Origin: a virus
IMG/VR virus record: IMGVR_UViG_3300050120_000197
Coordinates: 1-38,418 of that record
Length of the DNA: 38,418 nucleotides
Reading direction: 5' to 3' (one strand)
Numbering within the stretch: the first letter of the stretch is position 1; each line of letters starts with the position of its first letter. The position numbers and the translations under genes are program-made. Below are positions 5,932-16,773 of this stretch, one piece after another. A model generated the notes under the pieces. That model had not been told where the DNA came from and ran no database searches. It saw only the letters and a program-made list of their open reading frames with translations.

Positions 5932-6598
5932 TTATGATGGTTGGAATGTTGTCGCATTCAGACCAGAGATCCAATTTTGGTTTGTAATCGCGCGAGCAAT
6001 CGCAAACTTCGCATATAGTTGACTGTTTTGTGAAACAGACGAAACAACCCATGGCGGACGGTAACCGATAACAGCGGTGTAGTTATTCTGTTCAATCTTG
6101 GCTGCAGCTTCTAAACCATACATAGGGATTGTATAAACAGTATTACCTTTAAGTGATGCTCCAGGAATCTTTGCAGCTTTAGAAGAAACAAAGAAACGGA
6201 ATCTAGAGATCGAACAATACTCTTCTGGTCTTAGACCTTCTTGTGCAGGATATGCATTTTTAAGCAATACACCTTGTACTTTCTGAAGATCGTTTGTCAA
6301 ATTTGTATTTGCAAGCGCTATAAAAGCATCTCTAGTAGGGCCTGTAGCAAATTTATTCATTGCATCTATGCTTACAAGCATTGTACGCGCATCATTACCA
6401 AGAAGAATAGTTTCAATATTATTAACATCGTTCAAGGATATGTTTGAAGGCTGATCGCCGTTTAAACCACCTGTGGCATTAATATAAGATACACTAGAAC
6501 TGAAAAGGTCGCGCATTAGCAAATCTTCTTTTTCTCTTACCCATTGTCCTAATAATGCTGTAAACTTTGTTAGAGTCTTGCTATTTTCCCAAAGCACA
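5932..6598 (-). CDS. Major capsid protein, exon 2 (N4 gp56-like HK97 fold)
   Basis: Second exon of the major capsid gene. After removal of the 816-nt intron the two exons (302 + 667 nt) form one 323-codon frame, 322 residues, the usual size for this family. The splice rebuilds the family segment TNEQV-VLWENSKTL, and TALLGQWVREKEDLLMRD follows, matching the conserved LG-x-R-E-x-E-D-x-L-x-R-D stretch of N4 gp56-type capsid proteins. A local GTG at 6597 could mimic a start, but the protein would then lack its first 101 residues. The exon begins TGTGC, which pairs with the intron P10 element. Confidence 0.9.
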
Positions 6599-7414
6599 CA
6601 CTGGGATCTATTACTTTCAGCTCATAGTTAAGCTTACTGACCACTTTGTTTATAGTCTCGGTGGACTTTTATTGTGGCGGACGGTCTTGTTAATCCCGTC
6701 TCAATGGCTTTCACCATTGTTTAGACTATCGCTTACCGCATTAAAATAATGCAGTCCATCTCACTTAGTCGTTGCGGCTCTGCCTTAATTATGTTATCAT
6801 TAACGTATATAACAACGTTAGCAATGGATTTCATATGATTGATAAATACATTCGCAAAATTTATCCAGAAACAATTTGTGCCTATATGGCTGGCATTGTT
6901 GATGGTGAAGGTGCCCTTACTTCCGGAACTTATGCTAAAGCCAAGAATGGTAATCCTTGGTACACAACCTATCTTATCATTAGTTCCACTGATGAAATTC
7001 TCATCGACTGGCTTGTTGATAATTTTGGCAGCAAAAAGTTTAAATACACTAGAAAACAAACACCTATAAACAGTCTTAAAACTGTATATAAATGGCAATG
7101 TACCGGTGATAGACTTCTTCATATATGTGAAATTATTTATCCCTATCTCATCATTAAGAAAAGACAGGCTGAAATCATCATGGAGATGGTTAGATCGGGT
7201 AAACAAAAGTTTTATTGCGTTGGTCAATCTGGTCCTCAAGTTAAACCTGAGATCCATGAACTTCGCGCTAAACTTTGTCTCGAACTTCGTAATCTTCATG
7301 CTAGAAATCGTTCCTATAATTAAGAGTTGCCTCTGGTTACCTTGAGTTTATTAAACTTTTAGGCCTTCCAAGATATTTAGAGTTGGTTTATAGCAGGCTG
7401 TGCATAATTTTTTG
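6599..7414 (-). ncRNA. Group I self-splicing intron in the major capsid gene
   Basis: On the minus strand the 5' exon ends AGCAGGT and pairs fully with GCCTGCT at 7398-7392, giving P1 with the required U-G wobble at the splice site. GCACA (7403-7399) pairs with the first five bases of exon 2, TGTGC, giving P10. The intron ends in G. The core is recognisable: P3 TCCAT (6828-6824) with ATGGA (6759-6755); P7 GACTA (6770-6766) with TAGTC (6728-6724); P8 GCATT/AATGC (6752-6738); P9 CAATGG/CCATTG (6719-6702). Splicing joins the capsid frame exactly. The region between P1/P2 and P3 carries a homing endonuclease gene on the other strand. Confidence 0.9.
6835..7323 (+). CDS. LAGLIDADG homing endonuclease, encoded antisense within the intron
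   Basis: A 162-residue protein from the ATG at 6835 (MIDKYIRKIYPE). It has one LAGLIDADG motif, YMAGIVDGEGALTS (about residues 15-28), with the acidic catalytic residue. The downstream pattern is typical of the family: LIDWLVDNFGSKKF, then VYKWQCTG, and YPYLIIKKRQAEIIMEM. A single motif implies a homodimer. The frame stays open upstream to 6772, but that part overlaps the intron core helices, so the start at 6835, just outside P3, is preferred. The strand is opposite to the capsid gene, so its mRNA must come from its own promoter (a weak TTGCGG/TATCAT pair lies near 6772-6800). Confidence 0.85.
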   Translation: MIDKYIRKIYPETICAYMAGIVDGEGALTSGTYAKAKNGNPWYTTYLIISSTDEILIDWLVDNFGSKKFKYTRKQTPINSLKTVYKWQCTGDRLLHICEIIYPYLIIKKRQAEIIMEMVRSGKQKFYCVGQSGPQVKPEIHELRAKLCLELRNLHARNRSYN

Positions 7415-7716
7415 ACCTGCTCATTTGTAACAATTGATTTCGCATAAATTTCCATTGTTGCGTCAATATCGCTACGAACTGGAACTTCAGATGCTGGATC
7501 AATACCAGAACCATCAAGTTGACCGCCATCTGTAGATAGACGCTCAAAACGTGACATACGTGTAGTTTTACCGATATAAGCTTCGGCATGATGAAGATCG
7601 ACTCCGAAAGAGTGGATCAAATTGAACATTGGAGTTGACAATAGATCTTCAGAAGCCTGCACTGGCAACTCTGGAGCAAAATTGTTGATATTTGTAATTC
7701 CGGTAGGGAATGACAT
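7415..7716 (-). CDS. Major capsid protein, exon 1
   Basis: First exon of the major capsid gene: 100 codons plus two bases. It starts MSFPTGITNINNFAPEL and ends in the segment IYAKSIVTNEQ-V. Read without splicing, the frame runs 20 codons into the intron and stops at 7351. The exon contains the N-terminal arm and the start of the HK97-fold spine (DPASEVPVRSDIDATMEIY), as in N4 gp56-type capsid proteins. A GAGGTCAACC leader precedes the ATG, and three hairpins lie further upstream. See exon 2 for the joined product. Confidence 0.9.
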
Positions 7717-16609: not shown

Positions 16610-16617
16610 ACAAATAG

Positions 16618-16689
16618 GGGAGTGTAGTTCACTGGTAGAGCATTGGCCTGTTAAGCCACTGGTAGGTGGTTCGATCCCACCCATTCCCT
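16618..16689 (+). tRNA. tRNA-Asn (anticodon GTT)
   Basis: Full cloverleaf: acceptor GGGAGTG pairs 7/7 with CATTCCC; D stem GTTC/GAGC; anticodon loop CTGTTAA with GTT at 16650-16652; T stem GGTGG/CCACC with loop TTCGATC. 72 nt with discriminator T; CCA is not encoded. It sits in the plus operon just before a second tRNA. Confidence 0.92.
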
Positions 16690-16693
16690 ATAT

Positions 16694-16765
16694 TGTGCTG
16701 TAGCTTAAAGGTAAAGCAGCTAACTCATAACTAGCCGATTAATGGTTCAATTCCATTCAGTACAA
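16694..16765 (+). tRNA. tRNA-Met or lysidine-type tRNA-Ile (anticodon CAT)
   Basis: Cloverleaf: acceptor TGTGCTG pairs with CAGTACA; D stem GCTT/AAGC; anticodon loop CTCATAA with CAT at 16726-16728; T stem AATGG/CCATT with loop TTCAATT; discriminator A. The paired first base and acceptor make an initiator unlikely, so it is elongator Met or, if C34 is lysidine-modified, Ile (AUA). CCA is not encoded. Confidence 0.9.
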
Positions 16766-16773
16766 ACATTGTT

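Follow-up and report, generated by a model that had tools for sequence, protein, structure and literature searches.

The viral DNA analyzed here (IMG/VR virus record IMGVR_UViG_3300050120_000197, positions 1 to 38,418; the whole stretch of 38,418 nucleotides (nt) is called the window) carries a major-capsid-like gene split by a group I intron, and within this intron, read from the opposite strand, lies an intact gene for a LAGLIDADG homing endonuclease. In most of the family to which this intron belongs, stop codons are avoided in a single reading frame of the strand facing the endonuclease, although the amino acids of that frame are themselves unconstrained, pointing to a sense open reading frame (ORF), here called the cover ORF, that would be translated for the passage of ribosomes and not for its product. 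The model as a whole, comprising a mobile intron, an independently expressed antisense endonuclease and a cover ORF in most relatives, is given a probability of about 0.7.

The minus strand of the window carries both capsid exons and the intron core. Exon 1 (7415–7716, residues 1–101) and exon 2 (5932–6598, supported by its ORF, by homologs and by a match to phrog_1357, major head protein, E = 3e-4) are separated by an intron of 816 nt (6599–7414), delimited by comparison of its flanks with intronless alleles. In about 75 of the 80 capsid loci retrieved, which represent the closest capsids and are mostly 88–95% identical in exon 2, residue 101 of exon 1 is joined directly to exon 2; because of these uninterrupted homologs, the 5′ splice site is placed after 7415 and the intron is taken as 7414–6599 rather than as the gap between the two ORFs, and an exon 1 ending at its ORF stop (7351) is ruled out. 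The Rfam group I profile (Intron_gpI) matches the minus strand at 6871–6702 with 23.3 bits and E = 0.002, below the gathering threshold, and the assignment is further supported by compensatory pairs in P1, P3 and P7. P1 (7392–7421), retained in most relatives, pairs the exon sequence AGCAGGU (7421–7415) with the guide GCCUGCU (7398–7392), and, as is usual for group I introns, the 5′ exon ends on a U·G pair and the last intron nucleotide is a G (6599); the sequence also offers a P10 between the guide GCACA (7403–7399) and UGUGC of exon 2 (6598–6594).

The P3 5′ strand CCAACUC (7380–7386) pairs with GAGAUGG (6756–6762), and compensatory variants of both strands occur in relatives; P7 (6724–6770), formed by GACUA (6770–6766) and UAGUC (6728–6724), encloses the P3 3′ strand and P8 (6755–6735), and the P9 hairpin (6702–6719) belongs to the intron-core match. 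Pairing in P3 and P7 is maintained with compensatory changes across more than 30 loci, defining a conserved P3–P7 core. P6 consists of GGC (7329–7331) and GCC (6778–6776), for which alignments inspected by eye show covariation (GGC/GCC, GGG/CCC, UGG/CCA), and the endonuclease gene lies between its two strands. The first-pass annotation had located this gene between P1/P2 and P3; since the P3 5′ strand (7386–7380) precedes the gene and pairs with 6762–6756, the gene is instead in the P6 loop. The capsid pre-mRNA would be expected to self-splice. The exon 1 frame extends 20 codons into the intron (7414–7351, minus strand) and stops at a TAA (7353–7351) in a hairpin loop; a tail resembling that of the window is found in the relatives L002 and L012 (CTACFKPTLNNLE.LKAA), probably reflecting constraint on the RNA (P1–P5).

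The endonuclease gene (6835–7323, plus strand) runs from an ATG at 6835 to a TAA at 7323 and encodes 162 amino acids with a single LAGLIDADG motif; an in-frame TTG at 6772 falls within the ribozyme core and is unlikely to be its start. The protein matches phrog_5046 (E = 6e-23), which PHROGs labels as an HNH endonuclease, but its motif YMAGIVDGEG is that of the LAGLIDADG class. Its sequence is weakly related to I-MsoI and I-CreI, and an AlphaFold model built with 53 relatives in the alignment (predicted local distance difference test, pLDDT, 90.8; predicted template modeling score, pTM, 0.84) finds the structures of these two enzymes in Foldseek with E of about 1e-8 to 1e-7 and template modeling (TM) scores of about 0.70–0.76; a Pfam search of the endonuclease and capsid proteins gave no match. 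The acidic-residue motif AGIVDGEG is kept, with A19, G20, I21, D23, G24, E25 and G26 invariant. The ORF, the fold and the strands of the exons and core all confirm the earlier reading of an intact plus-strand LAGLIDADG gene in a minus-strand intron and capsid gene, and it follows from this orientation, as had also been proposed, that the endonuclease cannot be translated from the capsid mRNA. The enzyme would cut intronless capsid alleles, into which the intron would then be copied. Around the insertion point, a putative pseudo-palindromic homing site can be recognized (AGCA-GGTTG-TGCT).

Relatives (labeled L plus a number) were retrieved with an endonuclease-only profile, which is blind to orientation. 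Among the best 80 loci of the 264 found, the capsid exons are opposite the endonuclease wherever they were detected, that is, in nearly all loci, and the endonuclease frame is intact in all 71 distinct genes of this first set; a second profile added 37 further distinct genes, every one of them intact and antisense to capsid sequence. No broken gene was thus present among about 108 distinct relatives. The search for relatives with the same antisense layout that the first-pass annotation had proposed is in this way answered, and the recurrence of layout and intact frame in the 71 and 37 distinct relatives far exceeds chance. The antisense gene of the window recurs at the identical capsid site in L002 and L003 (81% amino acid identity), and L086 has an antisense endonuclease in a distant capsid; the distant, free-standing relatives known from cultured phages share the strand of their neighbor genes. 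At the insertion site of the window, L012 contains an antisense endonuclease only 32% identical; because the ribozyme cores of L012 and L002 are similar (89.5% and 78.6% identity) while their P6-loop inserts have diverged (53%), one endonuclease module has probably replaced another in situ without a change of orientation. Among the 80 closest capsids the intron is present only in the lineages of the window, L002, L003 and L012, a patchy distribution of the kind expected of a mobile element. A scan of GTDB genomes yielded a single weak match, L170.

Two further features of these capsid genes were observed. A second group I-like intron without an ORF, of about 214–230 nt, interrupts codon 30 of the same capsid gene in L012 (2028–2241), L055, L062 and L064, so that L012 holds both this intron and the one with the endonuclease; and in L102, L103, L104, L116, L142 and others there is an apparent extra interruption of the capsid near exon 2 residues 75–85, with a motif resembling an intron core.

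In the endonuclease frame, the ratio of nonsynonymous to synonymous substitution rates (dN/dS, ω) is mostly 0.04–0.2 (pooled, 0.10; window versus L002, 0.17), in agreement with strong purifying selection. Of the 71 endonuclease starts of the first set, 57 have a Shine-Dalgarno match of at least 4 nt upstream, compared with 4.8% of control ATGs (the same criterion mildly favored the choice of start); in the second set, 28 of the 37 starts have one. An exact TATAAT lies 21–40 nt upstream of the ATG on the endonuclease strand at 19 of the 71 first-set loci, versus 2 on the other strand. Translation from the antisense strand is well supported for the family, and transcription of both strands would be implied; where the promoter motif is convincing, the message would begin inside the P6 loop, its 5′ part lacking the P6–P9 half of the core.

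An unexpected feature lies on the sense strand opposite the endonuclease. In the window, the cover ORF (6733–7299, minus strand) has 188 codons in exact codon register with the endonuclease and is preceded by an AGGA (7315–7312) before its ATG at 7299. A sense stop in this register corresponds to a TTA, CTA or TCA codon in the endonuclease, and these three codons occur 168 times in the 71 endonucleases versus 578 expected from the codon usage of each locus; 30 of the 71 contain none at all, versus 0.35 expected. Fifty-five of the 71 were grouped as avoiders, a class drawn after the data had been seen; the pooled count (168 versus 578) and the second-set figures are independent of this choice. 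In the avoiders, stops in the three reverse frames number 39, 592 and 876, versus 462, 482 and 679 expected, the register frame being the first and the ratios in the other two 1.23 and 1.29, while in other genes of the same loci the corresponding ratios are 1.01, 1.03 and 1.02. The 37 unseen genes of the second set repeat the pattern, with 36 sense-register stops versus 317 expected (0.11; other frames, 1.15 and 1.31). Since ribosomes alone would be sensitive to stops in a particular frame, these data strongly suggest that this sense strand is translated.

Inspection by eye places the beginning of the open stretch, in many avoiders but rarely in non-avoiders, close to a start codon with an AGGA or AAGG box, next to the 3′ end of the endonuclease gene; the conserved AGAGG of P5/P6 is a partial confounder here. 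No support was obtained for the sense start codon acting as an added constraint on the endonuclease, as the matching His is conserved in non-avoiders too, and read-through from exon 1 as the origin of the sense ORF is ruled out, because its frame relative to exon 1 varies among loci. On the tree, avoiders are found in each of the two deep clades, and the state has changed about four times. The 16 non-avoider loci, including L109, L118, L125, L127, L132 and L147, use TTA, CTA and TCA normally, and most of them have a longer P1 loop; these lineages may have lost, or may never have had, the open sense strand. In L103, L110, L143, L154, L156, L160, L164 and L165, the cover ORF traverses the ribozyme core and enters exon 2 in frame, exceeding 340 codons.

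A positive control for an open but unconstrained strand is provided by the Gordonia phages SchottB, Barsten and Lennon, in which a related LAGLIDADG frame lies antisense, and in the same codon register, within an intein-like insert of a MuF-like minor capsid protein (Hint domain; Hint_2 E = 1e-5, just under the Pfam cut-off). These genes are unannotated (L176:2474–3064 in SchottB, L177:2474–3064 in Barsten, L181 from 2501 in Lennon). The endonuclease being inside an intein-like insert, the sense strand must be translated; between SchottB and Lennon, codon changes are 42 synonymous and 9 nonsynonymous in the endonuclease frame and 5 and 46, respectively, in the sense frame, which forms the intein linker, with zero stops. 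Further matches occur in Nordenberg, Thing3 and Sitar.

According to the proposed explanation, the capsid gene of a phage would host a mobile group I intron whose P6 loop contains an I-CreI-like endonuclease; this would be an independent plus-strand gene with a ribosome site of its own, joined in many relatives by a separate promoter, while selection would hold one sense frame stop-free, often with an AGGA-ATG start, yielding in most of the family a translated cover ORF free in sequence. Ribosomes covering a foreign insert of 500 nt in the highly expressed late capsid mRNA would then prevent Rho-dependent polarity, pairing with the endonuclease mRNA, or both. Read from the sequences, the intron, the antisense gene, the purifying selection upon it and the openness of the sense frame without constraint on its product form the firm part of this model; the purpose of sense translation can be suggested only tentatively, with cover against Rho-dependent polarity as first choice and protection from pairing with the endonuclease mRNA as second.

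That second possibility, taken as the sole purpose, would have cover translation shield the capsid pre-mRNA against duplex formation with the endonuclease mRNA and attack by RNase III, and not from Rho-dependent termination. It would explain the association with antisense genes, the two RNAs being fully complementary over the insert, but some antisense members have no cover and the expression side of the argument is itself deduced; it is regarded as a somewhat unlikely account. The timing switch proposed by the first-pass annotation, in which an endonuclease transcript antisense to the intron would inhibit splicing of the capsid transcript, with endonuclease and capsid being expressed in alternation, is improbable. 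By sequence, both RNAs are complementary over at least 489 nt, and read-through beyond the endonuclease, for which no terminator was found in the window, could reach P5–P1. Nevertheless, no promoter above chance precedes the gene in the window, the clear promoters of relatives sit just before the ATG, which would place the start of the message within the P6 loop and leave P6–P9 uncovered, and the upkeep of an open sense frame suggests use of the sense RNA.

A functional protein encoded by the sense ORF and overlapping the endonuclease gene would also account for a frame that is long, open and often provided with an AGGA-ATG start, but it is very improbable in view of sense amino acids that are unconstrained (dSN/dSS of 0.92 in avoiders and 1.07 in non-avoiders) and of ends that are not conserved, the stops being located from 15 to more than 800 nt beyond the endonuclease start; the purifying selection on both proteins expected of an overlapping gene pair was found for the endonuclease alone. 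Endonucleases are often codon-atypical, and the depletion could in principle be a by-product of a donor that avoided TTA, CTA and TCA, the more so as a mild reduction (about 0.4–0.7) also affects GTG and several NNA codons. However, in the avoiders only the three stop complements fall below 0.1 of expectation (TTA 0.09, CTA 0.06, TCA 0.09), the other Leu and Ser codons are not so depleted (TTG, TCG, TCT and AGT are near expectation), the equal loss of codons sharing a tRNA that this account would predict is not seen, neither non-avoiders nor free-standing relatives are depleted, and synonymous sites are near saturation between many pairs of avoiders, so that an inherited bias would have decayed; a codon-usage or tRNA cause was rejected on the restriction to stop complements and the undepleted free-standing relatives, and there is scarcely any chance left for it. 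That the endonuclease is a decayed passenger of an ordinary intron in accidental orientation, as a single relative arising by chance might have suggested, can be dismissed given the absence of broken genes among the 108, an ω of about 0.1 and an orientation kept through module exchange; the decay without conserved relatives that the first-pass annotation had named as grounds for abandoning its view is, on the sequence side, contradicted by an intact gene with conserved relatives.

Several observations weigh against the cover model, in addition to the late drawing of the avoider class. Group I introns are thought to exclude ribosomes (PMC3073962), and most cover ORFs continue into the ribozyme core. 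Sixteen of the 71 members avoid no sense stops (ratio 1.10), and the cover is therefore dispensable in some lineages. The AGGA-ATG spacing on the sense strand of the window is long (12 nt), and on the endonuclease strand its promoter-like and Shine-Dalgarno sites are weak: the scan of the window found nothing above chance before the endonuclease, the candidate TTGCGG-N17-TATCAT (approximately 6772–6800, plus strand; the same site is scored in L002 and L093) overlapping P6/P7 DNA. In the second set, which is more divergent, the TATAAT enrichment of the first did not recur (6 versus 4), and the model as a whole is drawn from sequence.

With I-CreI and I-MsoI, which are homodimeric intron endonucleases, the window's enzyme shares the fold and the single LAGLIDADG motif at about 15–20% identity, differing in that its gene is antisense, in a phage capsid intron, and known from sequence and a model. 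I-TevI, the endonuclease of the T4 td intron, is a GIY-YIG enzyme. The td intron is likewise a phage group I intron with its endonuclease gene in the P6 loop, but I-TevI is read from the sense strand and its translation from the pre-mRNA is repressed (PMC3073962). The closest likeness is found in mycobacteriophage LittleE (Pope et al. 2013), where a group I-like intron of about 820 nt in the major capsid gene, with splicing demonstrated by reverse transcription PCR, carries a LAGLIDADG frame on the opposite strand (PMC3706429); counted here, its register frame contains two stops, and openness of the sense strand is no topic of that report. I-DirII and I-DsqI of Didymium are also antisense endonucleases in group I introns, expressed from their own promoter, but they are His-Cys box enzymes of nuclear rDNA, with a P9.2 insertion (I-DsqI), spliceosomal introns and poly(A) (PMC9548176, PMC3073962). 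In phage ShiLan, a homing endonuclease is hidden in an insert that is stop-free in the host frame; there, an HNH gene occupies another frame of a methylase gene and no intron or intein was found, in contrast to the opposite strand, codon register and group I intron of the window (PMC11855218). Antisense intron endonucleases are thus uncommon yet not without precedent (LittleE, PMC3706429; Didymium rDNA introns, PMC9548176, PMC3073962), and because of these precedents the orientation alone is of a known kind. A literature search on Rho polarity in introns and on antisense endonucleases in phages, most subscription papers being outside its scope, returned only LittleE and remarks on other systems; none of the papers searched describes the breadth of the antisense family, its P6 location, the exchange of modules in place or, most notably, the sense cover ORF.

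Elsewhere in the window, phage tRNA genes for Asn(GTT) and Met(CAT) stand in tandem at 16617–16767 on the plus strand, adjoining a short cluster of plus-strand genes.

In summary, the evidence leans, by a modest degree, toward a widespread phage intron family translated on both strands, in which the cover ORF is selected only to lack stops and protection of the long capsid message, against termination or its own antisense RNA, comes from the passage of ribosomes and not from the product. In the received view, group I introns bar ribosomes by means of a stop just after the 5′ splice site and of hidden ribosome sites. If true, the family would provide a clean natural case of translation selected for passage alone, 500 nt of sense strand being kept open with the product unused, and a testable link among transcription-translation coupling, antisense RNA and mobile introns; annotation, meanwhile, misses antisense endonucleases within capsid genes, even within inteins.
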